From Desulforapulum autotrophicum (GTDB lineage Bacteria > Desulfobacterota > Desulfobacteria > Desulfobacterales > Desulfolunaceae): DNA of 64,000 nt. A program made the translations under genes and the position numbers. The DNA lies in NCBI GenBank assembly GCA_020723285.1, contig DYJE01000005.1, positions 1 to 64,000 on the forward strand. The letters run 5' to 3'. Shown here piece after piece: positions 7,557 to 47,090 of the stretch; the stretch's first letter is position 1, and each line of letters opens with the position of its first letter. Under the pieces are notes generated by a model. The model was not told the DNA's origin and did not search any database. It saw nothing but the letters and a program-made list of their open reading frames with translations.

Positions 7557-9188
7557 ATGAAGCGTTTTTGTTCGGCGGTCCTGACCGCCATGGTCCTGTT
7601 TTGCGCATCGGCCGCCGTGGCCGAGGAAGAGCCGGCACCTGCCGGACCTGTTGAAACACCGGCCCCGGCCGTTGAGCCGGAGGTCGAAAAACCCAGTCCC
7701 TGGAGCGTAAGGGGACGGTCCGAATCCGTTGTGGAATGGAAAAACGACAGCACCGCAAACAACGAAACCACCTTTCGCCAGGAACTGTCCGTCGGTATCA
7801 GCCGGAATGAAAAGGCATCCTCCATGGGACTGGATATCAGCGGCCGTGCCACGAACAACGAGACGGTGGATGAAAAAGACGCCCGTCTTCTGTACCTTCA
7901 CGGCTATTATAAAAACAATGGGAATCAGGCGGAAATAGGGGACGTGGCGGCCTCGTTCAATCCCCTGGTGATCAGTGCCTCCCTCAAAGGGACCAAACTC
8001 AGCCATCAGTCGGGTGATACAGTCACGGGCTGGAACGCCAGCCTGATCGGCGGGGTCCAGAAAGCCGGATGGGACGAACTTTTCGAAACGAACAGCCAGG
8101 AACCTTACGACCGGTACATCGTCAGCGCCAGCACCGACCGGTTTTTCGGCCCCGGCCGGCAGATTTCCTTGTCCACCGCCTTTGTCACGGACAGCGACTA
8201 TTCGGGCGGCGACGATCCCCTGGCCCTGACCACAGGGCCTGCGGAAGCCGTCACCGTGGGGGCCTCCTGGGACTGGCGGTTCAACCGTTACTTCAAAACC
8301 CGGGGAGAGGCGGCCATGACCCGCTGTGATGCCAACACGGATGACAGCCAGTCCTCCGACAACGCGGGCGCGGTGAGGTTCAAGCTGATGACCGTACCCC
8401 ACTCCCGCTACCTGAAAAGTGACTTTTATTACGAACGCATCGATACGGATTTCACCCCGTTCACCGCATCCGCAGCACCGGACCGCGAAAAGTACGAAAA
8501 CGACACGACCCTGATGGTCAGCCGCACAGCCAAAATCCGCCTGACGCTGAAGCAGAGCCGGGACAATCTGGACGGTTCACTGGGCGACGCCCAGACCATC
8601 CGGGACGGGGTGACGGACCTTACCTTGCGCCCCGACTGGCTGAAACGGGGCGAATGCTCGGTAAGACAGCAGATGAAACACACCGAAGGCCGGGGAACGG
8701 ATCAGGCCATCGCCATCTCTCAGGTGGATTTCTCCATCCGGCCCGCCAGCGGCTGGAAGTATGGCCTGGGTTTTATCTATACCGACATCGATGAGGACAC
8801 CCAGGGCATGGAGGACCAGGATATCTACACCGTGCGGAACACTCTGGGCTGGACCCGGACGTTTGCCAGCGACCATCAGTTCCGTTCAACCCTCCGCATC
8901 GACACCAACCGGATCAACCGGAATTCGGGCGACCAGAATTCCCTGGGTGGAAAAATCGACCTGGGTTACGACGCGGGCACCACCTGGTCGGCCGATTTTT
9001 CAGCCACCACCCGTGAAACCTACCGGGACGCGGCCGATGACAGCGAATACACAGCCTATGAGATCAGCGGCAGTTACCATCCCGGCGGCGACCGGTCCAG
9101 GGCGGTCCGCATCAACGCGGCCCGGCGTGACACCGATTCCGGAACCACCGAAGAGACGGCCAGGATATCCTATATTTTTTCTTTTTAG
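7557..9188 (+). CDS. Outer-membrane beta-barrel protein
   Basis: A 543-residue protein with a signal peptide (cleavage near AVA-EEE) and a short acidic/Pro-rich linker. About 480 residues follow of alternating polar/hydrophobic beta-strand segments, such as FRQELSVGIS and QISLSTAFV. The chain ends in ARISYIFSF, and a terminal aromatic residue is typical of BAM-inserted barrels. The start is fixed by MKRFCSAV after GGGGGGAG. No family name can be assigned from sequence alone. It lies 23 bp upstream of the giant secreted protein in the same direction, so it could be a conduit or surface anchor for it, which is inference. Confidence 0.75.
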   Translation: MKRFCSAVLTAMVLFCASAAVAEEEPAPAGPVETPAPAVEPEVEKPSPWSVRGRSESVVEWKNDSTANNETTFRQELSVGISRNEKASSMGLDISGRATNNETVDEKDARLLYLHGYYKNNGNQAEIGDVAASFNPLVISASLKGTKLSHQSGDTVTGWNASLIGGVQKAGWDELFETNSQEPYDRYIVSASTDRFFGPGRQISLSTAFVTDSDYSGGDDPLALTTGPAEAVTVGASWDWRFNRYFKTRGEAAMTRCDANTDDSQSSDNAGAVRFKLMTVPHSRYLKSDFYYERIDTDFTPFTASAAPDREKYENDTTLMVSRTAKIRLTLKQSRDNLDGSLGDAQTIRDGVTDLTLRPDWLKRGECSVRQQMKHTEGRGTDQAIAISQVDFSIRPASGWKYGLGFIYTDIDEDTQGMEDQDIYTVRNTLGWTRTFASDHQFRSTLRIDTNRINRNSGDQNSLGGKIDLGYDAGTTWSADFSATTRETYRDAADDSEYTAYEISGSYHPGGDRSRAVRINAARRDTDSGTTEETARISYIFSF

Positions 9189-9211: not shown

Positions 9212-12200
9212 ATGATCCACCGATACACACGTTGGGGCCTTTTCTTTTTTCTGTCAGGTCTTTTGTTTCTGTCCGGCGGGTCGGACGTCTTTGCCTACGA
9301 AGGCGACGACCTGGGCTTTATCGACGCCATAACCGTCAATGACCGTCACTTCGAGGATCTGGATGAAAACCGCATCGTGTTTTATCCCGAAGACCTTGTG
9401 AACGGTGAAGTTGTCATCCGGGGGCTTCTGGAACAAGAAAAAAAGGACATCCCTCTCACGTCCCTGGCTGTGGAAGTGACATTCGACGGGGGGAAAAGCT
9501 GGAAAAAAGCCGAAGGGAACGCCAGATGGACCGTGAAATTCAGACCTGAACTGGAGCGGGAGTATGCCTTCGCAGTGCGGGTGGTCAAGGCCGCCGTGGA
9601 AACCAGACCCCCTTCATCCGGCCCGGAGATGCTCCGGCTGGGTATCGGCCAGTTCACCCTCATGGCCCAGGCCCGTGAGACCAACGGACGCCTCAGCGGA
9701 ACCGGCGTGATTCACCTGGGATTTCTCAACAGCTACCTGCCCGGGGAGCTGCTGGCACGTTCGGGGGGGGAGGGTCCGGGCACAGCGGGAAAACCGGACA
9801 TGGCCAGTGGAATTCCGGTTTCCTTCAACGGCCTGAAACTGGACAGCTCCCGCAGCCGGGTCACCGAAGGGGAGATCCTGAAGACGGCCGCCTTCGACAT
9901 CCCACTCTCCGCCCGATCCCTTCTTTGCATCCGCTCCCTGAAACTCTCGCCCAATGGCGCAAGCCTCTCCGGCCGTTTCAACTATATGGGCGACATTTCC
10001 CTGCCCACGGTCCCGGTGAACGACCTGGCCTTCACCCTTTCCGGAATCACGGGCACCGTCAACTACCGTCCCATGAAGCCCGTCAGCATCCCCCTTTTCA
10101 GCGGCGCGTTTCTGACCACCGTGAAGCTCACCTCCATCGCCCTCGGCATCGACACGGCGGCGATGTCAGTGTCCATCCGCGACATGGATCTGTCCCTTGT
10201 TTTTGGCAGCAGCTTCGGAACCGTGAAGCCCCAGAAGGTGGCTCTGATGAATGGTGCCTACCGCTGGGGGCGTCTGGTGCCGGGCCATGCGCCGTCTGTC
10301 CTCACAATCCCCGGCACCCCGGTCACGGTCCGGGACATCGGGGGAACCCTCGACAAAGGTTTCGGCGGCCTGACACTTTCCGGCACCCTGTCCATCCCCT
10401 CGTACAGCGGGAAAACCCTGGACCTTGACCTTACCAGGCTGTCGGATCTGCGCATCGATTCCGAAGGTGTCTCCACCGTCAGGCCCATCGCGCTCAAGAA
10501 CTTGAATCAGACCTTCTCTCTGGGCGGATTCGATGCGGGGCTGCGGGAACTGATGCTGGACATCCGAAACAACGGGGTCAGCGGGTCGATGAAGGGCGAA
10601 CTTTCCCTGAAACGGCTGGGCGGTGCGAAACTCCGGTTCATCGCAGACATCGGAAACCGGGGCATCGGAACCCTGACAGCGGATTTCAAGGACGCCGGGA
10701 AAACCCTGTCCATCCCGTCCTTTGCCGACCTGACCCTCGCGTCCGCCAGCATCGGCGTGTCCGGCAAGGGCGGACTTGCCGTGGCGCTCGACGGGTCCCT
10801 TGCCCTGACCAACCCGGCCCTCGTCTCCCTTCGAAAGGACACGGCCATCACGGCCGTTGACCGGGAAGGCGCGTATTACGCCCGGATGGGAAAAACCACG
10901 GTTTCAAACACGGTGGCCGATGTTCAGGGCAAGGCCTCCGAAGAATTAAATAGCGGCCGGGGCCTGACGAAAGAGGCCCTTTCAGGAGGCAAAGCCGCTG
11001 TGTCCGCAGGCGCGGATTTTGTGTTCCGTGAACTGACCGTCACCCCAGACGGCATCCGCCTGCCCGACAATCTCAGCGGCTGGCGCACCCTGTCAACGCC
11101 CCTCACCGCCCAGGTGGAGGCCATGAACCTTTCGGCGGACGGCTGGGGCCTGGGAACCGACGCCAAGGGCCTTTGGGCCGGAATCAAAGGGTCGGTGGCA
11201 ACCAAGGGCTCCAAAGCCTCAGGCGCTGCGGCCAGCGTCGCCTTCTACACCGACGGGTCATACAACATACTGGATTTCAAGGCCAACACCACCCTCACCC
11301 TCGGCGGATTCCTGCTGTACACCGATGTGGCCCTGGCCGGAGGGTCCATCACGGGCAGCGGCCGGATCGTGTCGGCCCAGCCCATGCCGTCTCTGCCGGG
11401 TGCACTCAAGGACAGCCAGGGCCGGTTGAACCTGGATGTGCGTTTTTCGGATCTTGACGTCAATCCCACGACCCTCGCCGTCATCGCCGGGTCCATCGAG
11501 GTGCCGGTGGACGTGACATTGCCCTTTGACATGGCGGACATCACGCTCTCCAGACTGACCTTTTCACCGCAGTCCGCCCTGGCCGACGGCCGGGTCTTTC
11601 TGAAAGGCCTGCCGGGCATCGAGGGAATCTCCCTGTCCAACGTGGCTCTTTCAGCCGGCGGATTCAGCGCCACGGCGTCATACACACCCAAAAATCCCCT
11701 GGTGTACAGCTTTTTCCAGGGCCCTTACGCCCTGACCGCCGTGTTCAGGGGCATGGACCTGTCGTTCAGCACCCTTGACAACCGATTTTCCATCACCCGG
11801 CTGGACGCCTTCCTTGAAACCGGAGAAGCCTACGATTCCAAACGGTTTATTCTGGGTGTGAAAAACAACCTTTTGGCCTGGGGCAACACCCTTGCCGCCG
11901 GTGCGGGTGACGCTGCACAGAATGCCACCCTGAGGATTCCGGGCGGTCTGTGTGTGATCGAAAATCCCGGCGGGATTCTGTCGCTCAGGGATGCCGCAAG
12001 TGTCAACATCACAGGAAACATCGTGGTGCCGGGCCTTGATGGATTTTCCCTGACCATTCCCGACACGGCTCCGCTGACGGTGTCGGCCAGGGGCATCAGC
12101 ACCCGCGCCGACATCGTGCTCGACCGCCTGAGCCAGAAACTGAGTTTCGAAGGGTTCCCGGCGGCAATCCGGCGGTTTTCCATGAACATCAGTCAGAATG

Positions 12201-31038: not shown

Positions 31039-31530
31039 GGTCTTGTTCCCCGACTCCGCCGTGGCGGTTCATGTCAACGGTTATGATATCAGAATAAAAG
31101 TGACAAGCAACTTTCCTGCCATGGCAAGTCCTTGGGCTTGCAGTCATGGAACGGTCTGAAAATAAATGAAATATGGAAACATCGGTTTTCACGGATCATC
31201 GAGTGTTTTTTATTAATAACACAATTGTCATGAACGGATGCCGTAAATGTCAAATTCGGAGTGGCAGGTCACAGCCGGGTTGTCCCAAGGGCTTAAAGGC
31301 CTGAAACCACAGCTCCAATAATCGGTTGTGCCCCACACGGAAGTGTGTTAGGATCAGCTCAAAAAACACACATCTCATATCTTTATCAAATATTCGGATA
31401 TCATTATTCAAAAACAGAGACGATGGACCTCCTTTCACGGATTTGATGTTTATCACGGGTCGATAAAAAACAACGTGATTTATCGCCAATCCGTCCATTG
31501 TGCAATCTCCGAAAAAAGGAAAGCTGCGCT
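31039..31530. other. Divergent intergenic region glnD/channel
   Basis: About 490 bp between divergent genes. I see only a small CACAC-GGAA-GTGTG hairpin (31334-31347) and AT-rich stretches (31380-31420). No convincing sigma-54 element or gene is evident. Confidence 0.4.
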
Positions 31531-33135
31531 TTGAAAGATGTTTTTTTCAGAAAAAGAACCCTGAGAGAATCGGTCCGGGAAATCATGGAGCCCTTCAGGA
31601 ATTCCAGCGATTCCACCCTCATGAGCCTGGCCGTGGACGTGATCATCCTCGTCAGCATTCTGGCGGCCTGTCTGCTGATCCCGGCGGAATACCTGTTTCC
31701 GGAATACCGGGAGATTTTTTTAACCATCGAGATCTGGATCACCGTGGTTTTTATCGTGGAATACGTCTTACGATGGTACGCCTCCGAAGACAGGCTGAAG
31801 TATCCCCTGACACCCCTTGCCCTCATCGACTTTGTCGCCATTCTTCCCACGTTCATCACCACCCAGCACGGTCCCATGTACTTCAGTATCATCCGTAGCA
31901 TACGGCTTCTCCGGCTGATGAAAATCATCCGATACAGTTTCCTGATGAGGCGCTGGTATTCGGATTTTGTCCTCTGGGTGATCAGCATGAAAGAGAAAAA
32001 CAGGGCCAACCAGCTGCTTAAAGTCTTTTTTTACGCCCTGTTCACCTGGATCATCGGGTCCAATCTCATCTACATCACGGAGATTCACCTGGGAGATTAC
32101 AGGCTGGGGCCCTACAGCAATTACTGGCAATCGTACTGGAACATCATCGTCATCCTGTTTTCCGGAATCGAGGATAAAGCCCCCATGTCCATTGCCGGAC
32201 GTATCGAGGCGGCGGTCCTGCTCATCGCGGGAATCTGTTTCGCCGGTCTCATCACCGGTGAAATCGTCAGTATTCTGGTCCGGCATATCCAGCGAACAGG
32301 AAAAATCAACCTGAAGCCCCCGGGAAGCGTTCTTGAAGACCATATTGTCATCATCGGGCAGAACAAGCATCTTCACAATGTCATCACCCAGATTTATCAT
32401 GCCCTCAAAGGCAGCCACCATATCCTGGTGGTCAGCCGGGCTGCGGAGGAGCTGAAAGCCCTCGATTCCACCATCTACAAAAAAGTCCTGGCCCTGCCCG
32501 GAGACGCCCTTGATTCCAGAATTCTCCAGGCGGCCAATATCAAGGATGCGTTGCGGGTGGTTCTCCTGTCATCGTCTTTCAGGGCCGGGGATTCGGAGCA
32601 GGAGGTGGACAACCGGACCCTGATGAAAACCATGGCCGTTTTAGGAAAAAACGAGCGGGTCCCCATTGTGGCCGAGCTCCAGAGCGAAGATAATCTTCAC
32701 GGGGCATCCACTCTGGACAGTGTGGAGTTCGTGGTGAGCCGGCGTTTCGGAGAAAGGCTGATCAGCCAGGCGGTCCTGAACCCCGGTGTTACAGAGGTTT
32801 ACGACACCCTGATGACTTTCAACGACTGTGGCAGCGAATTTTTTACAGTGCCCGTTCCCCCGGATCTCGTTGGAAAAACATTCATGAAGGCCCAGCTCTT
32901 TTTTCTGGATATCGAAGAAGAGCCCATGGTGCTTGTGGGCGTTGACCGCTCACCGTTGGAAAACCCCACCACGGATTTCAGAATGTGTCCTTACGCCATG
33001 GAAAGCGGATACAAAACAGCCGATCTGATTTTAAGGCAGACCGACCGGCTCATCGTCATCGCCCAGGAACAGCCGACTTTTACCGAAATCTCAAAAACCC
33101 AGCTCTGGCGGGGCAAAATCTATCTGAGGAACTGA
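31531..33135 (+). CDS. Six-TM voltage-sensor-type ion channel with RCK domain
   Basis: A 534-residue membrane protein. S1-S4 lie in the first 135 residues, with ExxxR in S2 (FIVEYVLRWY) and an S4-like RSIRLLRLMKIIR. S5, a pore helix and S6 follow, then RCK-type Rossmann domains from about 270 to the end (HIVIIGQNKHLHN). The pore reads WNIIVILFSGIEDKAPMS, not the usual TxGYG filter, so ion selectivity is uncertain. Some distant relatives of CASTOR/POLLUX channels also deviate. A TTG start at 31531 with AAAGGAAAG upstream is preferred; ATG at 31585 is an alternative. It ends one base before the next RCK gene. Confidence 0.8.
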   Translation: MKDVFFRKRTLRESVREIMEPFRNSSDSTLMSLAVDVIILVSILAACLLIPAEYLFPEYREIFLTIEIWITVVFIVEYVLRWYASEDRLKYPLTPLALIDFVAILPTFITTQHGPMYFSIIRSIRLLRLMKIIRYSFLMRRWYSDFVLWVISMKEKNRANQLLKVFFYALFTWIIGSNLIYITEIHLGDYRLGPYSNYWQSYWNIIVILFSGIEDKAPMSIAGRIEAAVLLIAGICFAGLITGEIVSILVRHIQRTGKINLKPPGSVLEDHIVIIGQNKHLHNVITQIYHALKGSHHILVVSRAAEELKALDSTIYKKVLALPGDALDSRILQAANIKDALRVVLLSSSFRAGDSEQEVDNRTLMKTMAVLGKNERVPIVAELQSEDNLHGASTLDSVEFVVSRRFGERLISQAVLNPGVTEVYDTLMTFNDCGSEFFTVPVPPDLVGKTFMKAQLFFLDIEEEPMVLVGVDRSPLENPTTDFRMCPYAMESGYKTADLILRQTDRLIVIAQEQPTFTEISKTQLWRGKIYLRN

Positions 33136-33136
33136 T

Positions 33137-33967
33137 ATGGAACACCGCACCATTGACCCTCCCCTTGAAAACCATGTGGTGATCTGCAACTGCAATGAAA
33201 AAGTCAGGGCCATTGTCGAGGAAATCCACATGGACGTATCGGGAAAGCCCTACGATATCGTTCTCCTCATTCAGGACAAAACACTCTGGGATTTCAATCC
33301 GGACTGGCATCCCAGGGAAACGGACAGGGCCCGGTTCATCACCCTGGTGGGCAGCCCCTTTGACCGGGAGGTGCTTAAATCCGCGTGCATCGAAAAAGCC
33401 CGGGCCGCCATCATCCTCGCCGACCCCCGGCACGGACAGCTTGCGGACGCCCAGTCCACCCTGATGGCTGTGGCCATCGAAAAACAGAACCCCCAGGTCC
33501 ATACCATTCAGGAGCTGATCCTCACCACCAACCGGGACCACCTCAAGGCCATGAACGTGGACGAGGTGATCTGCCTTGGGGAAATCTCCGAAAAACTCAT
33601 CGCCCAGAGCTGCATTTCACCTGGGGTGAAAAATATTTTCGAAAGCCTGCTCACCACCGGCAGGGGCACCTCCCAGATTTTTCTCCAGCAGATCGGGCCT
33701 GAGCTGGCCGGGCTGAGTTACAGGAAAATCACACGGGCAAGCATTGAGGCCAAGGCACCGTTCATCGTCATCGGATACATTATTTCGCCTCCGGATCTGG
33801 GAGCCCTCAAGGGATCTGTCACCCAGATCCGGTCCGTCCTGATGATCAACCCCAAAAAAAAGGCCAAGGACATGCCTTTGTCCGAATTCGACAAACTGAT
33901 TCTCATCGGCTATCAGCAGCCCGTGTCCCTTGATGAATACGTGGGCATGATGCGCGAGGAGCTTTGA
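33137..33967 (+). CDS. Stand-alone RCK (TrkA-N-like) regulatory protein
   Basis: A 276-residue soluble protein resembling the ligand-binding RCK half of ion channels. The N-terminal Rossmann fold starts with HVVICNCNEKVRAIV, in which the normal GxGxxG is replaced by CNCNEK. A TrkA-C-like tail occupies about 190-250. It is one base downstream of the channel gene, so the two are probably made together and may form a gating ring. Binding of NAD(H) or a nucleotide is doubtful given the changed glycine motif. Confidence 0.8.
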   Translation: MEHRTIDPPLENHVVICNCNEKVRAIVEEIHMDVSGKPYDIVLLIQDKTLWDFNPDWHPRETDRARFITLVGSPFDREVLKSACIEKARAAIILADPRHGQLADAQSTLMAVAIEKQNPQVHTIQELILTTNRDHLKAMNVDEVICLGEISEKLIAQSCISPGVKNIFESLLTTGRGTSQIFLQQIGPELAGLSYRKITRASIEAKAPFIVIGYIISPPDLGALKGSVTQIRSVLMINPKKKAKDMPLSEFDKLILIGYQQPVSLDEYVGMMREEL

Positions 33968-36452: not shown

Positions 36453-37475
36453 CTACCGCAGTTCACGTTGTCCGGTAAGCAGTCCGTCTCTGTAATATTC
36501 CAACGGCGCCAGCTCATCGGACCCGTTCCAGCCGTTTTGCGTAAGATGGCTGCGGATATCGTTGCAGAGGTCGCATCGTCCGGCGAACATCTCTCGTGAG
36601 GGGACATAGCCAAAATCGATCCGGGCCAGGTCGTACAGGCCCCTCACCCCTTTTTCCATCAGGATGTGGATCAGCGGATAAGAGGATCGGTCAAGTGTGG
36701 ACCCGAGGTCGGAAAGACGGATCGATAGGCCGGAACACAAACCCGGAATGTACCGGCCGTGAAGATCCACATGGAAGTGGGACGTGTCGGACAAGACCTT
36801 TTCGCATCCGTAAAGGTCGCGTTCAAAAATGCGGTCGAGGGTGTCCGTCTGTCCCCAGGTCCTCAGAAAATTTAGAGCCCGTCCCCCGGGATGAAGCCAG
36901 TACCCGTTCAGGACAAAGGAGGCCAGGTGACCTTTGAAAGCTTTTTCAAGGGTCTGCCAGTCCTGGGCTTTCGATGCATCGCCTTTGGACAGGAGAGGGT
37001 TGAAGATGTGGGACCAGGGGATCACACCGATGCCTTCGTCATGGCAAGCCCGCATCAGGCCGATCACGCGGCCATAAGGGATAAAGGCGTTGTGAAAGGG
37101 GCTGACGGAAACAAGAAAGGCATTCAGCCCCTGGGACTTCAGCGTTCTCAGGCTTTCCAGCGTCCCGCCGCCTTCGGTGAACCAGGCGGCGTTTGTTTCC
37201 ACATAGTCGATATCCATGCCCGCGTCAGCGGCCGCTTCGAGCACTTCCCCGAGCTTTTCCGGCCGGAGAACCGGTTCTCCCCCGCCGATGTGCATGGATC
37301 GGCATCCCAGTTCCCTGATCCTCGTGAAGCAGTCCACGGCGGTCTCCCGGTCCATGTAGCCCCTGCTTCGCTCAGGCCCGCAGTTGTAAAGGCAGTGCCC
37401 GCAGCGGGACACGCAGTGGTAGGTCGTGATCAGCCCGCCCGATTTAAGGCGGGGGATACGGAAGGTTCTCGCCAT
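36453..37475 (-). CDS. Radical SAM protein
   Basis: A 340-residue radical S-adenosylmethionine enzyme. The [4Fe-4S] motif is CVSRCGHC (CxxxCxxC) near residue 22 and the SAM-binding GGGEP is near residue 60. A C-terminal pair of cysteines (GRCDLCNDI) may hold an auxiliary cluster. The substrate cannot be assigned. GGAG precedes the start at 37475. It points away from the FemAB-like gene and lies at the edge of the peptide-biosynthesis island, so it may or may not belong to it. Confidence 0.85.
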   Translation of the reverse strand: MARTFRIPRLKSGGLITTYHCVSRCGHCLYNCGPERSRGYMDRETAVDCFTRIRELGCRSMHIGGGEPVLRPEKLGEVLEAAADAGMDIDYVETNAAWFTEGGGTLESLRTLKSQGLNAFLVSVSPFHNAFIPYGRVIGLMRACHDEGIGVIPWSHIFNPLLSKGDASKAQDWQTLEKAFKGHLASFVLNGYWLHPGGRALNFLRTWGQTDTLDRIFERDLYGCEKVLSDTSHFHVDLHGRYIPGLCSGLSIRLSDLGSTLDRSSYPLIHILMEKGVRGLYDLARIDFGYVPSREMFAGRCDLCNDIRSHLTQNGWNGSDELAPLEYYRDGLLTGQRELR

Positions 37476-37543
37476 GGGTTGCTCCGTCGTTTTCTCCGAA
37501 TTAACCAAGCATGAATGAATGGTTCGTTTTCAATGATTGAAAC

Positions 37544-37582: not shown

Positions 37583-37731
37583 ATAAACAAGGGTGAAATG
37601 TGTGGGGTCATCCCTCCATGATCCGCTTTATCCTGGACTGAACCGACATTCCCGTGATGAAAAAACAGTTGCACCGGGAGGCTGTTTTTGTTTAGGTTCA
37701 TTGAACATCACTTGCCCAATCAGGGATGACT

Positions 37732-38790
37732 ATGAATCAGACATCACAGGTTTATATCCGTGAGCTGTCCGAGGGGGAGTACGGCCGCTGGACACGGTTT
37801 GTCGCGGAGTCTGAAACGGGGAGCGTTTACGCTCTGCCCGCCTACCTTCGGGCCTTATGCCGTGTGACATCACGGAGCTTTTCCATCTTAGGGGCGTTCC
37901 GGGGCGACAATCTGGTGGGGGGCATGGCCATGTACATGGGGAAAACAGAAGCGGGGCTCGTTTCGGCGGATCACCATCTTCTTTTTTACCACAGTCCGGT
38001 GATCCGGGATTACACGACAAAATACGCCCATGAACGGACAGCGCGGCAATTCACCATTCTGGCGGCCCTGGAACAGCATCTCCGGCATCATGCCTGCGAC
38101 CATCTCGTCCTTTACATGCGCCACAGCCTCACCGACCTTCGGCCGTTCAACGCCGGGGGCTGGCGGATTGTTCCGCGCTACACGTATCTGGTGACCCTGG
38201 ATCACGCAGACCAGATCTGGAACCGCATGGCACCGTATCAGCGGCATCTCGTGGAAAAAGCGATGGACCAAGGCGTCACATGCTGCGATGACGGCGATTT
38301 TTCGAGTTTTTATGCGCATCACCTGAAAACATGCCGGAAAAAAGGCCTGAAACCCTATCTCCCGGAACCGGCGTTTCATTCGTTCTATCAGGAACTCAAG
38401 GCCGAAAATCTCTGTCGGCTGTACCACGCGAGACTGACGGACGGGCGAAACGCGGCGTCGCTTCTCGTTCTCGGCGGTCCCCATCCGGTGAGTCACACCC
38501 TCTGCGCGGCTTCGGATCCCGATTTTCATGGCCTGGGCGTCAATCCCTTTCTTCGCTGGGCCGTGTTCAACGACCTGATGGCACGGGGGTACACGGCCAA
38601 CGACTTGAGCGGTGCGCCTCTCAACGATGTGGCCCGGTTCAAGCGGCAGCTGGGCGGAGACCTGGTGGTCAACTGGCAGGTGATCCGTCCTGTTTCAGCG
38701 GGTTTTTATGTCCGCCGTGAAATGGTAAAATTCAGAAAGCGGGTTGTTTCACGGATCAGGCGGACCTTTGGCAGGGGAACCGCTCCATGA
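37732..38790 (+). CDS. FemAB/GNAT-like acyltransferase
   Basis: A 352-residue cytosolic protein with two weakly similar acyltransferase halves. It resembles the Acetyltransf_6/FemAB-like group, which attaches amino acids or acyl groups to peptides or glycans. Typical segments are AGGWRIVPRYTYLVTL and the C-terminal DLSGAPLNDVARFKRQLGG. The start at 37732 has CAGGG at proper distance. It overlaps the next gene by ATGA. The acceptor is unknown; location beside a predicted peptide natural-product cluster makes a tailoring role possible. Confidence 0.75.
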   Translation: MNQTSQVYIRELSEGEYGRWTRFVAESETGSVYALPAYLRALCRVTSRSFSILGAFRGDNLVGGMAMYMGKTEAGLVSADHHLLFYHSPVIRDYTTKYAHERTARQFTILAALEQHLRHHACDHLVLYMRHSLTDLRPFNAGGWRIVPRYTYLVTLDHADQIWNRMAPYQRHLVEKAMDQGVTCCDDGDFSSFYAHHLKTCRKKGLKPYLPEPAFHSFYQELKAENLCRLYHARLTDGRNAASLLVLGGPHPVSHTLCAASDPDFHGLGVNPFLRWAVFNDLMARGYTANDLSGAPLNDVARFKRQLGGDLVVNWQVIRPVSAGFYVRREMVKFRKRVVSRIRRTFGRGTAP

Positions 38791-40226
38791 ACGTCCTTCT
38801 GATTTCGCCCTTCCCTGCAAAACCTGACGGACGGACCGTCATGCCCTCCGTGGGCTGGATGCCCCTGGGCCTTGCCTCCATTGCCGCTGTCCTTCGAAAC
38901 CACGGGCACACGGTTTCCATTTTCGACCGGTTCGCCGAAGCCTTTCGCTGCAAGGGGTTGAAGGAGCCTGTGGACCGGCGCATGCTGGAACACCTGGAGG
39001 CTTTCCAACCCGATCTGCTGGGATTTAACACCGTGTCTCCGCTGATATACGACACCGTGTTCTGTGCAAACCTTATCCGCAGGAACTTCCGTGGGCTGAT
39101 GATCGCCGGAGGCCACCATGCCACCGCGTTGCCGGAATGGACCCTGATGAGGATTCCCGAGCTGGACGGGGTGATCACCGGGGAAGGGGAAGAAACCCTT
39201 GCCCGTTTGGCAGACGGTGAGTCGTTTGAAACCATCCCGGGGCTGACCTGGCGGAAAAACGGGACCATTTTCGGGTCCCGCCACCGTTGTATCGACGATC
39301 TGGACCGGCTGCCTTTTGCCGCCGTGGATCTTCTGGATTTGCCGTTTTACACAAAGAAACGAAGCTCCGTGGGCCGGGGAAGGCGTCTTTCCGTGCTTTC
39401 CCTGTTCACCAGCAGAGGCTGCGGCCATTGTTGCCCGTTTTGTTCCGAGTCCATGGCCCAGGGGAAAAAAATCCGTTTCCACAGCACGGATTACGTCATG
39501 GACCAGCTGCGGCACCGTCTTGCCACCTGTGGGGTGAACGGGTTTTATTTCCTGGACAGCGATTTTCTTTCGGATCCGGAAAGGGCCGCCGCCCTGTGCG
39601 AAGCCATGATCCGGGAGGGTTTGAACAAACGGGCCTCGTTTATCATCCAGGCCCGGGTGGACGGGATCACGCCCGGTATCCTGAGCCTTTTGAAGCGGGC
39701 CGGATGCGTTCTGGTGGAGCTGGGGGTGGAATCCTTTGTTCAGAACCATCTGGATTTCATTGGAAAAGGGGTGGCCGTGCAACAGAACCAGGAGGCCCTG
39801 GGCATGCTGAGGAAGGCGGGAATGGCCGCCCATGTCTACATGATGACCGGTTTTCCCGGCGAAACACGATCCGATCTTGAGGCTTGTCTTGAACGGATGA
39901 AAGCTGTGAAAGGCGATGTGACCTTTACCCTGAGCCCTTTGACCGTCGATCCCGGAACACGGCTGTACCTGGAGACGGGCGGGCAATGGTTCGAGGAAAA
40001 GGACTGGACGCCTTCCGCGATAGGGGATTACTACTCCCGGAGTCCTCTTTCCAGGGTGTCTCCCGCAGAATACAAACAGTGGGAAACGGAAGAAGTCCGG
40101 CCCTGGATGGAAAAAAACCGCAGAAAGGCGGTTTGGCGGAGAAATCCATTTTTCGAGAACCTGACGCTGTCCGGGATAGCCCTGATTCGGCACAACGTCA
40201 ACCGGGTCCGCGACCTGATTCGTTGA
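38787..40226 (+). CDS. B12-binding-domain radical SAM protein
   Basis: A 479-residue enzyme. The N-terminal 140 residues are a cobalamin-binding-type Rossmann fold (MNVLLISPFPA, GGHHATALPE). The radical SAM core begins near residue 200 with GCGHCCPFC, which fits CxxxCxxC. Members of this group perform methylations or rearrangements on unactivated carbon, but the reaction cannot be predicted here. It is coupled to the FemAB-like gene by a 4-base overlap and converges on the minus-strand peptide cluster. Confidence 0.9.
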   Translation: MNVLLISPFPAKPDGRTVMPSVGWMPLGLASIAAVLRNHGHTVSIFDRFAEAFRCKGLKEPVDRRMLEHLEAFQPDLLGFNTVSPLIYDTVFCANLIRRNFRGLMIAGGHHATALPEWTLMRIPELDGVITGEGEETLARLADGESFETIPGLTWRKNGTIFGSRHRCIDDLDRLPFAAVDLLDLPFYTKKRSSVGRGRRLSVLSLFTSRGCGHCCPFCSESMAQGKKIRFHSTDYVMDQLRHRLATCGVNGFYFLDSDFLSDPERAAALCEAMIREGLNKRASFIIQARVDGITPGILSLLKRAGCVLVELGVESFVQNHLDFIGKGVAVQQNQEALGMLRKAGMAAHVYMMTGFPGETRSDLEACLERMKAVKGDVTFTLSPLTVDPGTRLYLETGGQWFEEKDWTPSAIGDYYSRSPLSRVSPAEYKQWETEEVRPWMEKNRRKAVWRRNPFFENLTLSGIALIRHNVNRVRDLIR

Positions 40227-40269: not shown

Positions 40270-40434
40270 TTAAGACAGAGGCGAACCAGAAGGACCATCG
40301 CTCACCCCTCCCAATTTTCCCAGGGTGTCGCCGCAATCGAGTTTTTTAAGTTTCGGCGGGGTCCAGGGCTTGGGTTCCGGCCGTTCCGTGTGTTCCTCAT
40401 GGGTGTCTTTGCGGGTCGAGTCGTTTTGTTTCAT
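40270..40434 (-). CDS. Predicted lasso-type RiPP precursor peptide
   Basis: A 54-residue peptide. The leader (1-38) is charged and holds KPWTPPKLKKL, a W-x-x-P-x-L element like the YxxPxL site bound by RRE proteins of lasso systems. A Thr occupies the -2 position of the predicted cleavage site (DTL/GKL). The predicted core GKLGGVSDGPSGSPLS begins with Gly1, has Asp8 placed for an eight-membered macrolactam ring, and ends in Ser16. C-terminal Ser is the phosphorylation site in paeninodin-type lasso peptides, whose clusters carry an HprK-like kinase as here. AAGGGG lies 7 bases before the ATG at 40434. It follows the cyclase gene by 19 bases. The assignment is by pattern, not by homology search. 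Confidence 0.7.
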   Translation of the reverse strand: MKQNDSTRKDTHEEHTERPEPKPWTPPKLKKLDCGDTLGKLGGVSDGPSGSPLS

Positions 40435-40453
40435 GGTTTTTCCCCTTGTCATT

Positions 40454-42370
40454 TTATTGAGATTCCGAAATGAATCGGCCGGCCATCACGGCCCGAAGCA
40501 GCCGGGCCGAACTCAGGCGGTGTAACGGATCACGCGGGTTACTCCTGATGGCGTTCCACATTCGTCTGACCTGACAAAAGTCGAGAACCTCCGTAACGCC
40601 TGTGTGCTTTTCAAGATCATCTAATTCCCGGTTCATGTCATGGGCATGGGCGGCGAGCCTCACCGCCAGATCAGCGGCCTGTCTGCCCCGGCGTTCGTTC
40701 AGCCTGACCGATTCCGGCAAAATACCTTTCATGGCGTCCCGGATCAGGGTCCGGCTCGATCCCCCTTGTGTGTAAAGGGATTCAGGAATTCCGAGGCAGA
40801 ATTCCACCAGATCCTGGTCCGCCGTAGGGTCCCGGATATCCAGGCCGTACATCGCTCCAAGGTGCTGATACGTACTGCCCTGGGTTGCCATCCTCTGGAG
40901 AATGCCGATTCGGTCTGTTTTCATGATACCGCCCCTGGACTCACGAGCCATGGCTTCCCAAAGGCCGCTCTGCCGCGCGAAACCCGCGTGGATGGCATTT
41001 ACATGGATCGATTTTCGGAATTCAGCGCCGGACAGGGCCAATGCCGTCCCTGCCGCGCGCCTTACGGCGGGAAGCATCAGCTGTGTGAACACCGCCTGCC
41101 ATAAGGTCATGTGCCTCTGCCGCCTGGATTGCTTAAGGGCCTTCCACCCTTCGTCCCATCGCCCTTCACACCATAAAAAAAATATTCTGTTTTGTCCACC
41201 GGTCCATGACACCCCGGCATTTCCGGCCTGACCGGTGAGCATCACCCCGATGTTCTTTGCCCGTGCCGCTTCCAGGATGGACATCATCCAGAAGAGATTC
41301 CCCGCCCCGTGGACCGGATGGCCGAGAAAGGACAGAAGGAGGCGGACCGCGTCGAGGGGCGGCAGGGTTTCTGCTGTGACCGGCATGTGGGTGATGTTGC
41401 CGTGACATCTGTCCACATCATGGGCCAGATCCCATTCGTTAGAGAGGATTCGTTTGGTTTCTGGCCGGTAGCCGGCCAGGGGGACCGAGGTGAAGGCGCT
41501 GAGTGTTTGGCCTGATCCGGCAAGCTCACCGGCGGCCAGGGCCGTGACCGACCCCGAATCCAGTCCGCCGCTGAGCTGGGTTCCGATGGCGCGGGAGGAT
41601 CTCAGGCGCACGCGCACGGCCCGCTGAAACAGTTCGAGAAATCGCTCAGGATAGTCCGAAGGGGACGGGTAGCGGCAAACCGGGGCGTTTTCAAGATGAT
41701 AAAAGATCCCGGTTCTGAAAGAATCACGGGTTGCGGAAAGGTAAGAGGCCGGGGGAAGAAGACGGATGCCCGCCCAGAACGTCCGGCTCCGGTCCGGGCT
41801 TTTTTCTGGCAGAACGGCAAGAAGCCGGGCCAGATGCGGTTCATCCGGTTTTCTGGCTATTTCCGGCAGGGCCAGCAGAGCCGAAGGGCTTGTGGAGAAA
41901 AACAGACAAGGCGGGATGTGGCTGTAATAGAGCCCTGTGACACCCAGGGTGTCCCGGGCCATGAACAGGCGCTTGCTTCGGACATCCCAGGCGGCGAAAG
42001 CCCAATCTCCCCGGAGCCGTTCCAAAGACCGATCGCCCCAGGTCAGGTAGGCCAGGCACACCAGGCGGCTGTCCGTCACACGTTCCACCTGGCTGTATGA
42101 AAGGCCCAGGCCGTCGCAGAGTTCCCGCCGGTTGTCGAGCCGGGCGGCCGCCGTGAATCGGAGGCCCGATTTTTCATCTGTAAACGGCATGGTTTCATGG
42201 CGGGATTCGGGCATGTCGATCCTGTGGGCATGCCCCAGGCCTGAGGCCCCTTCAAAATGAAGGGATACCCCGTCCGGACCCCAGGGCGCAAGGGCCGATC
42301 CCATGGTCTCAAGGGTGCTTGTCGTCGTATTCCGCTCTTCGAAACAGATCACACCAAATATGGCGCTCAT
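40454..42370 (-). CDS. Asparagine-synthetase-like lasso cyclase (C protein)
   Basis: A 638-residue homologue of AsnB. The N-terminal amidotransferase-like domain begins MSAIFGV, where true AsnB has Cys2 (MCGIFG); the catalytic cysteine is missing, so it cannot hydrolyse glutamine. The synthetase domain keeps the PP-loop SGGLDSGS near residue 265. Loss of Cys2 with an intact adenylation site is the hallmark of lasso-peptide macrolactam synthetases, which adenylate an Asp/Glu side chain and join it to the N-terminus of the core. GGAG precedes the start. It sits directly upstream of the precursor gene and downstream of sulfotransferase, kinase and RRE genes. Confidence 0.8.
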   Translation of the reverse strand: MSAIFGVICFEERNTTTSTLETMGSALAPWGPDGVSLHFEGASGLGHAHRIDMPESRHETMPFTDEKSGLRFTAAARLDNRRELCDGLGLSYSQVERVTDSRLVCLAYLTWGDRSLERLRGDWAFAAWDVRSKRLFMARDTLGVTGLYYSHIPPCLFFSTSPSALLALPEIARKPDEPHLARLLAVLPEKSPDRSRTFWAGIRLLPPASYLSATRDSFRTGIFYHLENAPVCRYPSPSDYPERFLELFQRAVRVRLRSSRAIGTQLSGGLDSGSVTALAAGELAGSGQTLSAFTSVPLAGYRPETKRILSNEWDLAHDVDRCHGNITHMPVTAETLPPLDAVRLLLSFLGHPVHGAGNLFWMMSILEAARAKNIGVMLTGQAGNAGVSWTGGQNRIFFLWCEGRWDEGWKALKQSRRQRHMTLWQAVFTQLMLPAVRRAAGTALALSGAEFRKSIHVNAIHAGFARQSGLWEAMARESRGGIMKTDRIGILQRMATQGSTYQHLGAMYGLDIRDPTADQDLVEFCLGIPESLYTQGGSSRTLIRDAMKGILPESVRLNERRGRQAADLAVRLAAHAHDMNRELDDLEKHTGVTEVLDFCQVRRMWNAIRSNPRDPLHRLSSARLLRAVMAGRFISESQ

Positions 42371-42422
42371 GGGTGTCTCCGGATATGGCTTATGGATGTG
42401 GCGTTACCGGCGTTGGACCGTT

Positions 42423-43283
42423 TCAATACACGATGTCTCCGTTTTGGTCCAGATACCCGAATCGGCGCATGATGATTCGGTGGTCCTCCACGACCCGCTG
42501 TGCCTGGCCAAGGTTCAGTTCGTCACGCCAGGAGCCGAAAGAACCCTTTCGGAAGAAACAGGGGGCCGAGGGGCTTTTTTCCTTGAAACCCTTCGACGCC
42601 TCCTGTTTTTGCAGGGTCTCGAAGGCACAGTGGTCCAGGGCTTTTTCGATGTCCTTGGTCGTGTGGGGCAGTTCCATGAAACGGACGGCTTTTTCGAAGG
42701 TTTCAAGGGGGTTTGTTTTCATGTCCTCGTAGCGCATCACGCAGACCGGGAACGGCGCGTTGTCCACCCAGCTCGCCACATGGCCGCTCCACGTAAAGAG
42801 CTTCTGGCGGAGCTGGGTGTTGAGGCGGTTCGGAGTTTCACTAAAAGAGAAAGAGCCATCGGACATGTTCTCGAGGGTTCTGTCGTAATTCCATCCGCTG
42901 TGAATGGCGAAGGATACAACCACGTCCAGGGGATTCCGGATAAAGTACAGGGCTCCGAAGGTGGCTTCCGTGGGAATCAGCGGTGTTCCGTCAGGAAGAT
43001 GGGTGTAGGCGTCATGGATTTTCATGCAAAGGGGGGCGTCATAATTTTCCGAAAGCCAGCGATACAGATCGGGCCTCAAACGGTCGATTTCTTCGGCGCT
43101 GAGGTCCGACGAGGCGAATCCCATGTTTTCGTCGAATATTCTTCTGGCGCTGGCGTTGGGGGCCTGTTCCAGGGCGTTGATGTCTGCCGGATCATCACCG
43201 CCGTTCAGGAGGTTGGCAAGGAAAATCCGGAACCAGGTGTTTCCGGATTTGGGGTAGGAGGCGAGCCAGATGATTTTTTTCAT
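42423..43283 (-). CDS. PAPS-dependent sulfotransferase
   Basis: A 286-residue cytosolic sulfotransferase. The 5'-phosphosulfate loop YPKSGNTWFR is at residues 10-19, and the 3'-phosphate segment (FIRNPLDVVVSFAIHS) follows near residue 115. It transfers sulfate from PAPS to a hydroxyl acceptor. The ATG overlaps the stop of the HprK-like gene (TCAT at 43280-43283), which indicates coupled expression. The best local candidates for acceptor are the Ser residues of the predicted peptide, but this is inference; a glycan or small-molecule target is possible. Confidence 0.85.
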   Translation of the reverse strand: MKKIIWLASYPKSGNTWFRIFLANLLNGGDDPADINALEQAPNASARRIFDENMGFASSDLSAEEIDRLRPDLYRWLSENYDAPLCMKIHDAYTHLPDGTPLIPTEATFGALYFIRNPLDVVVSFAIHSGWNYDRTLENMSDGSFSFSETPNRLNTQLRQKLFTWSGHVASWVDNAPFPVCVMRYEDMKTNPLETFEKAVRFMELPHTTKDIEKALDHCAFETLQKQEASKGFKEKSPSAPCFFRKGSFGSWRDELNLGQAQRVVEDHRIIMRRFGYLDQNGDIVY

Positions 43284-44179
43284 GACAGGATCTTTTCCTC
43301 CACAGCGTCGGCCAGCTCGGAAAGAAGAAAACCACCGTTGGGTCTCAGAACCTTGAACACGCGAGCGGTGTTCCCCAAGACCACGCAGTGGTGGAAATGG
43401 CTGCTTTTTCCTCCCAGACCTTTCAGAAAATTCATGCGGAACGTGTTGTCCACCAGGCTGTTGATTTTGTCCGATCCTTTCAACGGAATGATGTCTATGG
43501 TGTCCCGGTTTGCCGGCTGTATCACGAAAATGTCTTTGACCGGAACAGCCCGGGTTTGCTGGAACGCAACCGGCATAACGTATTTTTCCAGGCAGTTGCC
43601 CCATCTGACAGATGTCAGACAGCGTGGGTCGATCTCAAGCTTTTTTAGGGTGTCGGACCAAAGCTTCAGCTGCGGGAAGCCGGCCATCACCGAGGGGCGA
43701 CCGTTTCCGGTTGAAACAGCGCTGAGGTCGTCCGCCAGGAACGGGTAACCTTTTTTGTGAAAACAGGCGGTGAGAGTGGATTTCCCCACACCTGAAACAC
43801 CCGAGAACAGGGCGCTTCCTCCGTCAACCTGAACGGCTCCGGCATGAAGAACCAGCATGGCCCGCTGATGGAGAAGGGCACCCATGGCCGAGCCCATGAG
43901 AAAGACCAGGATGTCGTCCGCCTTGGCCCCTTTTTCAGGAGCAATGGTGATGCGGCTGCCCTTTCGGATATGGTAAACGGCAATCCCGTCCACCTTGAGC
44001 AAAAGTTCACCGTCCGCGGCCTGGAAGCGGACGCCTTTGAACCGAACGTCAGCAAGGTGTTCCGGCACGGCTCCCACATCGATGGTCACGTCGCTCTCCG
44101 GGCCGAATGCCATTTCAGGGGCGGGAAGCGGGATGGATGAAACGATCCTCAATCCGAATGAGACGTAATGAAAATCCAT
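43280..44179 (-). CDS. HprK-like peptide kinase
   Basis: A 299-residue protein related to the C-terminal domain of HPr kinase. The P-loop GVSGVGKST is near residue 126 and FLADDLSAV follows. Such kinases occur in RiPP clusters together with PqqD-like proteins. In paeninodin biosynthesis a homologue phosphorylates the C-terminal Ser of the precursor. Here the precursor also ends in Ser. The reading frame runs upstream, but MDFHYVSFG starts 7 bases after the PqqD-like stop and is preferred. No PTS HPr gene is nearby, which argues against a classical HprK role. Confidence 0.8.
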   Translation of the reverse strand: MDFHYVSFGLRIVSSIPLPAPEMAFGPESDVTIDVGAVPEHLADVRFKGVRFQAADGELLLKVDGIAVYHIRKGSRITIAPEKGAKADDILVFLMGSAMGALLHQRAMLVLHAGAVQVDGGSALFSGVSGVGKSTLTACFHKKGYPFLADDLSAVSTGNGRPSVMAGFPQLKLWSDTLKKLEIDPRCLTSVRWGNCLEKYVMPVAFQQTRAVPVKDIFVIQPANRDTIDIIPLKGSDKINSLVDNTFRMNFLKGLGGKSSHFHHCVVLGNTARVFKVLRPNGGFLLSELADAVEEKILS

Positions 44180-44186
44180 AGGCCGT

Positions 44187-44489
44187 TCACACCACGTCCG
44201 GGTCCAGGATCTCGATAATTCCCTCAACCAGAAGATCTTCGAGAAACGCCAGGACGTCTTTTTCGCAGGTGGTTCGGTCCACATCAAACCGTGTTTGCAA
44301 TGTGTCGATGATCAGGGACACGGCCAAAGGCTTTTTTAGGATATCCCACACCTCTCGGCCCACGGAATCCAGACCGTAGTATTGGCCAGTGGCCATGCTC
44401 ATCATGACCTTTTCATCGTCGATGTCACTGGCAAGGAGGTCCTTGTTCTGTCTGACGATGGTGTTGGTTGAAAGGGTTTGCTGTTTCAT
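44187..44489 (-). CDS. PqqD-like RiPP recognition element (B1 protein)
   Basis: A 100-residue protein of the PqqD family. The pattern MMSMATGQYYGLDSVGREVW with a downstream helical region is characteristic of stand-alone RREs that bind the leader of a precursor peptide and present it to enzymes. AAGGAG lies 7 bases before the start. Its presence with an AsnB-like cyclase and an HprK-like kinase supports the lasso/RiPP assignment. The usual second half of the B system, a transglutaminase-like leader protease (B2), is not encoded next to it. Confidence 0.85.
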   Translation of the reverse strand: MKQQTLSTNTIVRQNKDLLASDIDDEKVMMSMATGQYYGLDSVGREVWDILKKPLAVSLIIDTLQTRFDVDRTTCEKDVLAFLEDLLVEGIIEILDPDVV

Positions 44490-45701: not shown

Positions 45702-47090
45702 CTAAATGGATATACCGCCTGAAATGATCTGGACCACCATTTCATCGTATTGCTCATCAGGAATGCCGTCATTCCAGGACCCGGCTTCTTCTCCGCCCGG
45801 CCAGAACAGGTTGCCGCTGAAAAGAATGGCACCGGTTTTTTTGTCCCGGATGATGAAAAGGAACGGTGAACTGTCCTTGATCCCTTCTTTTTCATAAATC
45901 CCGCGTCCTGTGGTAATGATCACCGATCCATTCCCATTCGGATCATCCCATACCGTATCCGGCTCGTCCGATGTGGCATCGAAGATGGCCCCGGATTTTC
46001 CCGTCGCAGAAATGGAAAGGGAGTTCAGGTCAAGGGACGTTGATACGAAAACGGATTTGAGGAAAAGAAAGCCCAGCCCATTGACGCCCGAGAAGTCCTG
46101 GTCAGCCGGTTCAAGGAGTTCTGCAACCGATAAACCGTACCAGGATTCGATGGAGAATTCCGGAACTGAAAACGAGACTTCCGTTTTTTGTAAAGAAGCG
46201 AGAATGGTCGAAACCGATTCATCGAGATTCTCTTCAAGCGACTGGAACGCTTCCCGGCTTGATGGAAAAATGAACAGCATCGATAGGGAGCCGTTATCCG
46301 AAGAGGTGTCGTAGGCGGTGAAGTTCCCGGTGGTGACGTATCCGTATTCACCCTGGATTCTCACGTGCGGTTTTCTGTACTGGATGCCTTCGAATATTTC
46401 AAAAAGTCCGTTAAACCTTTCGGCGACATGGAACACGGATTCCGTGGCCACATCTATGGATGATTTTGATCCAATAACGAGACGGGTCATGCCGCAGATT
46501 GCTTCACAATCCAGAGTGATTCCCAGCATCGAAAAGATCCCGGCGCTTTCTGTAACCCAGTTTTTTCTGAGATCATGGGCGGAAAGTGCCGGGTGAGTCT
46601 GTTTGTCCAGTTTCTGAAGAAATATTTCTTCGAACCTGTAGCCGGACTGTCCCATGGCGGCATGTGAACAGACGATCGAGGGATTGTCCGGGAAGCACGG
46701 GTCAAAGGCCAGTTTTTCGCCATCAAGAAACGGATAGAAGCCTGCCAGCCAGGCGGATGTTTCCCCTGCTGCTCCCAGCGAGACCATGGCTATGGTGCTG
46801 AAAAAACTGCCAGCGCCCACAACATGATTGGAGGGATCAAGGCTGTTTAACGGCCTTGAATTCTTATGCAGAGAAATGGCGCATGTGTTATAGTCCGTGT
46901 AATCAGCGATAACCGTTTCCGAATCTTCACCGGCCACAATGTTTCTATCCGTCCGCGTCAAATACTCTTCTATGGTCACACCGATCGTGCTTTGAGAGCC
47001 AGCCGGGGAATTATCCTTCCCGCAACTTAGGGTCATGAGCAAAAGTATCAGAGAAAAGATAATCATCTGGAGGGTGTTATGCATTTTCAT
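45702..47090 (-). CDS. Serpin-like lipoprotein
   Basis: A 462-residue lipoprotein with lipobox LMTLSC (acylated Cys near residue 23). The mature part fits a serpin fold: the helix F/strand 3A-like segments (LDKQTHPALSAHDLRKNW), strand s5A-like FSVPEFSIESWYGL, and the C-terminal strand FLFIIRDKKTGAILFSGNLFWPG, which closely matches the serpin PFLFxIRxxxTGxILFxG end. The reactive loop region (ISATGKSGAIFDATSDEPDT and on) is acidic and does not show the canonical Ala-rich hinge, so protease inhibition is uncertain. It stands alone on the minus strand. Confidence 0.75.
   Translation of the reverse strand: MKMHNTLQMIIFSLILLLMTLSCGKDNSPAGSQSTIGVTIEEYLTRTDRNIVAGEDSETVIADYTDYNTCAISLHKNSRPLNSLDPSNHVVGAGSFFSTIAMVSLGAAGETSAWLAGFYPFLDGEKLAFDPCFPDNPSIVCSHAAMGQSGYRFEEIFLQKLDKQTHPALSAHDLRKNWVTESAGIFSMLGITLDCEAICGMTRLVIGSKSSIDVATESVFHVAERFNGLFEIFEGIQYRKPHVRIQGEYGYVTTGNFTAYDTSSDNGSLSMLFIFPSSREAFQSLEENLDESVSTILASLQKTEVSFSVPEFSIESWYGLSVAELLEPADQDFSGVNGLGFLFLKSVFVSTSLDLNSLSISATGKSGAIFDATSDEPDTVWDDPNGNGSVIITTGRGIYEKEGIKDSSPFLFIIRDKKTGAILFSGNLFWPGGEEAGSWNDGIPDEQYDEMVVQIISGGISI

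Follow-up and report, generated by a model that had tools for sequence, protein, structure and literature searches.

A probable lasso-peptide operon with a paired HprK-like kinase and sulfotransferase in Desulforapulum autotrophicum

Introduction

Can one lasso peptide be tagged with both phosphate and sulfate, and can its leader be removed when no leader protease is encoded beside it? Both questions are raised by a five-gene locus in the first 64,000 nucleotides (forward strand) of contig DYJE01000005.1 of Desulforapulum autotrophicum (Desulfobacterota; assembly GCA_020723285.1), a stretch referred to here as the window. The locus encodes a PqqD-like recognition element (RRE) for ribosomally synthesized and posttranslationally modified peptides (RiPPs), an HprK-like kinase, a sulfotransferase dependent on 3′-phosphoadenosine 5′-phosphosulfate (PAPS), an AsnB-like cyclase, and a short precursor peptide, designated B1, K, S, C, and A, respectively. 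It is very likely a genuine class II lasso-peptide operon, the product of which probably bears phosphate and sulfate. A first-pass annotation had proposed a lasso cluster here; it mentioned neither the local lack of the leader protease B2 and of a transporter nor two sister loci in the same genome, all of which are described below.

Evidence for a lasso-peptide operon

The five genes lie at 40270-44489 in the order B1-K-S-C-A, at the positions and on the single (minus) strand that the first-pass annotation had assigned to them. The overlaps or short gaps that it had reported are confirmed by the coordinates, with gaps of 7, 52, and 19 bases at the B1-K, S-C, and C-A junctions, respectively, and an overlap of 4 bases between K and S. 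All five reading frames are open. Its lasso interpretation is supported by three lines of evidence: a B1 score above a lasso-specific cut-off, the placement of the cyclase in a phylogenetic tree, and the pattern of the precursor.

B1 scores 97.0 bits against the lasso_PqqD_Bac family (NF033536; cut-off, 80) and is therefore a lasso-type RRE. It also matches PF05402, and its nearest solved chains are 9x90_B and TbiB1.

The cyclase begins with MSAIFGV, so that the glutaminase Cys2 is gone, and retains SGGLDS, as had been noted before. Its best NCBIfam match is the lasso cyclase family NF033535 (313.1 bits). Similarity to asparagine synthase (TIGR01536; 152.4 bits, below cut-off) and to the XrtA/PEP-CTERM amidotransferase (TIGR03108; 123.1 bits; cut-off, 816.9) could be taken to mean that C is an ordinary asparagine synthetase or an exopolysaccharide amidotransferase and that the peptide is spurious, a reading that is barely credible given that lasso cyclase is the best family and that the precursor pattern recurs. 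The tree also argues against it. The tree was built from 14 lasso-locus cyclases (13 from this phylum and one from the acidobacterial locus L007) and three controls, leaving out Escherichia coli AsnB and the protein of locus L006; one control, L082, has a very long branch. Window C joins the 13 other lasso-locus cyclases and is split with 97/97 support from three Asn_synthase proteins encoded in this genome, with Cys2 retained in two of them. The grouping with true asparagine synthetases that the first-pass annotation had named as counting against its proposal was not found, and assignment to asparagine synthetases or exopolysaccharide-linked AsnB proteins was rejected on this tree. Within the lasso group, window C pairs with the cyclase of locus L063 (genome G239; 44% identity).

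The precursor reads MKQNDSTRKDTHEEHTERPEPKPWTPPKLKKLDCGDTL/GKLGGVSDGPSGSPLS (leader/core) and starts at the second ATG, six bases upstream of which lies an AAGGGG ribosome site. Its leader carries a WxxP motif (WTPP, within WTPPKL), and cleavage is expected after Thr-Leu, which places Thr at -2 and leaves the core GKLGGVSDGPSGSPLS, with a predicted Gly1-Asp8 ring, a C-terminal Ser, and no Cys. WxxP, Thr(-2), core Asp8, and C-terminal Ser are marks of a kinase-modified lasso precursor. In 60 dinucleotide shuffles of 64 kb, searched on either strand, 14 small open reading frames (ORFs) with this strict pattern arose, or 0.23 per shuffle; the window has one. Because the window and sister peptides themselves served to define the pattern, the test is not a blind one and gives no more than an indication. 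The leader/core pattern recurs at independent lasso loci. Conservation of the peptide in related genomes, on which the first-pass annotation had made its proposal depend, was thereby found in part, at the level of the leader/core pattern.

Sister loci and distribution in the phylum

Two further loci of this genome contain A, B1, C, K, and a sulfotransferase: L017 on contig C67 (~163-170 kb) and L018 on contig C32 (~40-46 kb). Their precursors end in ...AWEDPELIELSVSKTEVGGSWPNASDGASTYS and ...QWIAPQFIDLSSKATAGGANVNSEAFSYHPAS, respectively, the former failing the strict pattern. A, B1, C, K, and S are likewise found on contig C210 of G001, a genome from another genus of the family, where the precursor ends in ...NWEKPDFDILDIAFDTALSSGSGADGNGRTS. 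A search of relatives covered 57 other genomes, six of which belong to the same family; apart from G001, none yielded a cyclase relative at an E value of ≤1e-40. A second lasso locus of G001 (L076, contig C295) comprises B1, B2, A, K, a Stf0-type sulfotransferase, a further B1-like protein, and C.

Each sister locus encodes a window-like sulfotransferase and a second sulfotransferase fused to an N-terminal region of ~270 residues (L017:8751-10379 and L018:8483-10141). This region carries a conserved CAYTCPARTCYLGFSQ stretch and matches no Pfam family above cut-off; a relative without the sulfotransferase part is encoded at G209:C5:35344-36060. The structure model of the fused protein, from a two-row alignment, had a mean predicted local distance difference test (pLDDT) score of 32.5 and was not used.

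A sample of the phylum gave 22 B1 matches outside this genome, and regions were taken for 20 of them (G275:C37 and G371:C173 were left out). With a four-sequence profile, a cyclase was recognized in 8 of the 20 regions; the other 12 were not counted, and some of these, in which B1 lies beside B2, may encode a cyclase that diverges further. Every locus of the phylum in which both B1 and C were found also has K (13 of 13: the three of this genome, the two of G001, and eight sampled). Outside the phylum, K is present in the acidobacterial L007. Because window and sister-locus sequences were the basis of the K, S, and C profiles, hits lean towards these loci.

At 99.1 bits, the RRE of L054 (G270:C40) has the top lasso-B1 score in the sample, and a kinase-like gene lies nearby; no cyclase was found beside this RRE and no B2 in G270. 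L054 is perhaps a linear kinase-modified peptide system resembling the LPPs presented in the available text of PMC13381572.

The kinase and its partner sulfotransferase

K has the P-loop GVSGVGKS. Its family matches are weak and confined to HprK families, and HprK-related cut-offs are not reached. A profile of 10 K relatives has HprK (1jb1) as its best solved-chain match, and the predicted structure (pLDDT, 91.1) matches phosphoenolpyruvate carboxykinase structures first and HprK further down. The predicted target, by analogy, is the C-terminal Ser of the precursor: known kinases of this kind act on a C-terminal Ser, according to the available text of PMC8498205, and seven of the eight precursors found at loci with K and S end in Ser, in line with that specificity. 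A fourth kinase of this genome, 48% identical to window K, is encoded at L019:8576-9484 (G000:C68:560593-561474) behind an NlpC/P60-SPOR protein gene; no precursor-like ORF was found nearby.

S belongs to PF00685 (86.4 bits), and Teg14 and Teg12 are its nearest solved chains. YPKSGNT, KxH, and RNPLD are conserved in all six aligned S sequences; we take these motifs to serve PAPS binding and catalysis. An adenosine 5′-phosphosulfate kinase is encoded in the genome, making a supply of PAPS possible.

The pairing of K with S is recurrent. Seven copies of the window S type, in five genomes, were examined, and each lies directly behind K, with junctions that overlap by 4 bases (window, L022, and L095) or 8 bases (L064) or leave a gap of 4 bases (L017); with chosen starts, L018 overlaps by 8 (ATG at 11041) and L055 by 4 (ATG at 9180). 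L095 (G134) is a 3-kb stretch in which the K-S pair stands with no other lasso gene in view, and the S gene of L017 contains an in-frame TGA, which lies within the profile match, at the extreme end. In an eighth place, L076, the unrelated Stf0-type enzyme follows K with a 4-base overlap. In a search of 390 genomes of the phylum, the S subfamily occurs in four at an E value of ≤1e-30, and all six copies are directly behind a kinase; at most six candidates were scored per genome, and the count may therefore be low. Overall, 7 of the 13 loci with B1 and C have a sulfotransferase, a share raised by the five loci from this family.

Several observations weigh against the interpretation of the locus as a kinase- and sulfotransferase-modified lasso operon. 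The score of C is below the NF033535 cut-off of 525, and the best NCBIfam match of K, HprK_rel_A (TIGR04352), reaches 38.2 bits, far under the cut-off of 200. The precursor of L064, the eighth of those at K-S loci, ends in Lys, and in that of L017, which fails the strict pattern, Thr falls at -3 when Gly is taken as the first core residue. At locus L006 (Gemmatimonadota), B1 and a cyclase relative are present, with no K in the 11,380 bases covered. L063, the nearest cyclase relative, has K, but no S was detected there, and among the eight sampled loci with B1 and C, S is present at two only (L055 and L064). In addition, no B2 was found in the window, and a pattern search of ORFs of ≥400 amino acids (aa) found no ABC-transporter signature in the window or the other scanned regions; an ABC exporter is an optional component of class II lasso clusters.

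S might alternatively sulfate a coproduced small molecule or a surface glycan rather than the peptide. The acceptors of PF00685 enzymes are diverse, glycopeptide-antibiotic and small-molecule sulfotransferases are among the best solved relatives of S, and the case of L063 points the same way. This alternative is nevertheless improbable, as the S subfamily is found only behind HprK-like kinases (the six copies above) and the unrelated Stf0 enzyme fills the same slot in another lasso locus.

If S does act on the peptide, K and S could compete for the C-terminal Ser, which would then carry either phosphate or sulfate, or S could act on the phosphate installed by K. The tight pairing of the two genes would suit either arrangement, and the tail of one L055 precursor (core AHTGMVYDGEIGAGS) has no hydroxyl other than that of its C-terminal Ser. 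The pseudomycoidin nucleotidyltransferase, moreover, adds a hexose to a phosphorylated peptide (PMC8498205, in the text available). On the other side, every core has a further hydroxyl besides the C-terminal one. We are aware of no enzyme that sulfates a phosphate on a peptide, which counts against the second variant, and competition or successive action at one residue is somewhat unlikely. The preferred reading is that K would phosphorylate the C-terminal Ser and S would sulfate a hydroxyl of the same peptide. A hydroxyl immediately precedes the acceptor Asp/Glu in six of the seven precursors that occur with this S type, but this pattern was recognized post hoc in Ser/Thr-rich cores and is also seen at L063, which has K only, and it is not claimed to mark the sulfate acceptor.

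Leader recognition

Paeninodin RREs favour WxxP leaders, and paeninodins are termed restricted to Bacillota in the available text of PMC13381572. The paeninodin-family traits of a WxxP leader, an HprK-like kinase, and a C-terminal Ser are all present at the window locus. The PbaB1 numbering of the same source agrees with chain 9x90_B at all 12 residues checked, and the window RRE was mapped onto this chain. The hydrophobic pocket is retained or conservatively changed, and Asp occupies the positions of both Gln79 and Gly42. Among 13 aligned RREs (the window included), the Gln79 position is held by 11 Asp, one Lys, and one Glu, and the Gly42 position by Asp or Asn throughout; the equation of LppB D70 and N33 with these two positions is our own mapping. 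A pocket of the paeninodin type, in which hydrogen-bonding residues are lost, is not what the window RRE has. The leaders thus look paeninodin-like and the RREs look generalist, and the system is therefore not filed as a paeninodin.

A leader protease encoded elsewhere

One B2 was detected in the genome, on contig C85, by PF13471 and by a ten-sequence B2 profile alike. Its score against NF033537 (111.9 bits; cut-off, 33) makes it a clear lasso B2 member, and one Cys and one His are invariant in the alignment of the ten sequences. No lasso gene was found in the 17 kb around it. The search for a second B2 in this genome with the ten-sequence profile at an E value of ≤1 recovered only the C85 protein, although a B2 could have been missed, as the assembly is in draft state (92 contigs; completeness, 97.2%). 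No B2 was found within the three loci of this genome or the C210 locus of G001. The only B2 detected in G001 belongs to L076, so that the C210 locus is also without one of its own.

The usual arrangement in the phylum sample is closer: B1 and B2 are within 5 kb of each other in 15 of the 22 genomes with a B1 match at an E value of ≤1e-12, 7 kb apart in G173, and on different contigs in four (G087, G144, G226, and G000, the present genome). At an E value of ≤1e-8, no B2 was found in G270 or G363, the latter having a weak match in a 502-aa frame. Set against this arrangement, the window cluster might be defective or decaying and yield no mature peptide for want of a nearby B2. That is quite improbable: the five frames are open, the layout without B2 is shared by all three loci of this genome and by one from another genus, and B2 is encoded elsewhere in both genomes. 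Furthermore, PMC13381572 cites a paper whose title states that pseudomycoidin can form without leader or leader peptidase.

A functional cluster served from a distance is the reading that we prefer, although maturation independent of any B2 is conceivable. As the single B2 is alone on another contig, one protease may serve three lasso lines in trans. In the literature searched, which leaves out most subscription papers, nothing relevant to a B2 shared in trans was found.

Proposed pathway

From gene content and family membership we infer the following course, in a presumed order. B1 would bind the WTPPKL leader of A. K, like its relatives, would phosphorylate the linear precursor at its C-terminal Ser16, and S would move sulfate from PAPS onto a hydroxyl of the same peptide, which could be that of Ser7, Ser11, Ser13, or Ser16. 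B1 would then recruit the C85-encoded B2, which would cut after Thr-Leu, and C would activate Asp8 and close the Gly1-Asp8 ring, giving a product presumed to be threaded. Three such lines may run in this genome with one B2. We tentatively suggest, as a possibility that falls short of an expectation, that the genome makes three phosphorylated and sulfated lasso peptides from three dispersed operons with one free-standing B2 acting in trans and that the two-step K-S module has been assembled at least twice, with unrelated sulfotransferase families.

Neighboring genes

The features of the window are collected in Table 1. The cobalamin-type radical SAM gene next to A is convergent with it and ends 43 bases from its end, and the encoded protein could be a third tailoring enzyme acting on A. 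Over 478 aa it shares 36% identity with a protein of G334 (L068:8498-10021) whose gene overlaps a lasso-type B1 gene and adjoins B2 and a weak K match, and its best NCBIfam match, below cut-off, is the RiPP enzyme ApyD. There is little likelihood of such a role, however, as the gene is on the strand opposite to A, the other scanned loci, sister loci included, give relatives of no more than 27% identity, such proteins are widespread, and no cyclase was found at the G334 locus. The FemAB-like gene of the window had no relative at an E value of ≤1e-4 in the regions scanned, and the second radical SAM gene matched only one protein, weakly: the radical SAM protein of L021. At L021:4162-6615 (G000:C33), a PqqD protein, this radical SAM protein, and a P-loop protein weakly matching window K are encoded side by side, and the locus is perhaps another RiPP-like one. 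A bacterial serpin-domain protein is encoded near the operon, and two adjacent genes farther away encode an Ion_trans protein and its neighbor, each with Slo-like RCK domains.

Table 1. Features of the lasso locus and its surroundings (window coordinates)
Feature	Position	Strand	Length (aa)	Evidence
B1, PqqD-like RRE	44187-44489	minus	100	NF033536, PF05402
K, HprK-like kinase	43280-44179	minus	299	P-loop, weak HprK family matches, predicted fold
S, PAPS-dependent sulfotransferase	42423-43283	minus	286	PF00685
C, lasso cyclase, AsnB-like without Cys2	40454-42370	minus	638	NF033535 best match, tree
A, precursor peptide	40270-40434	minus	54	Ribosome site; WxxP, Thr(-2), Asp8, C-terminal Ser pattern
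Radical SAM protein, cobalamin type	38787-40226	plus		
FemAB-like protein	37726-38790			
Radical SAM protein	36453-37508			
Serpin-domain protein	45702-47090	minus		PF00079, 54.3 bits
Ion_trans protein and neighbor	31498-33967	plus		Slo-like RCK domains in each

Significance and comparison with known systems

Sulfation, if it takes place, would add a new reaction to the tailoring repertoire of lasso peptides, and the K-S module offers a small, testable enzyme pair for placing two anionic groups on one peptide. If one B2 does serve three RRE/precursor pairs, the genome would provide a natural system in which to test how pathways are shared or kept apart by RREs. In addition, the set of traits known from paeninodins (WxxP leader, kinase, and C-terminal Ser) occurs here in another phylum with RREs of generalist residues.

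The first-pass annotation had stated that no characterized lasso cluster combines a kinase with a sulfotransferase. This holds for the chemistry in the literature searched, in which neither a sulfated lasso peptide nor one bearing both phosphate and sulfate was found; the gene combination itself had already been noted (PMC4289311 and PMC11381294, each in the text available). Kinase and sulfotransferase genes in some lasso clusters were mentioned in 2014, the available text not saying in which (PMC4289311), and some paeninodin-type clusters of Firmicutes carry a sulfotransferase gene (PMC8498205, available text). A paeninodin-type operon of Paenibacillus sp. APC 4171 has sulfotransferase and nucleotidyltransferase genes, as in P. 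polymyxa CR1, although the word “kinase” is absent from the main text of that paper as available (PMC11381294). A review of June 2026 lists phosphorylation and acetylation among lasso modifications, and neither “sulfotransferase” nor “sulfon” occurs in its available text (PMC13352647). Tyrosine-sulfated RiPPs are known in another class (PMC9484694, available text).

The paeninodin-type clusters of Bacillota resemble the window locus in their discrete B1, HprK-like kinase, WxxP leader, and C-terminal Ser, and some have a sulfotransferase gene. Unlike them, the window locus is in a different phylum, has its B2 outside the cluster and no nucleotidyltransferase among the five genes, and encodes an RRE without the paeninodin-type exclusion residues (Asp at the Gln79 and Gly42 positions). 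The proteobacterial polyphosphorylating lasso kinases (Zhu et al. 2016, as presented in PMC8498205) are also HprK-like and act on the C-terminal Ser of the linear precursor, but no sulfotransferase is mentioned for them in the available text of that source. The locus of G268 (probably Desulfobacca acetoxidans) has K directly followed by S, together with B1, C, and two WxxP precursors, but B2 adjoins B1 there, whereas the window locus is without B2; it is presumably the predicted D. acetoxidans cluster Desac_0932, from a genome that has already been mined. The gene combination is therefore already visible in genome mining, and it is the recurring K-S module, its three copies in a single genome, and the lone B2 that go beyond the descriptions found.

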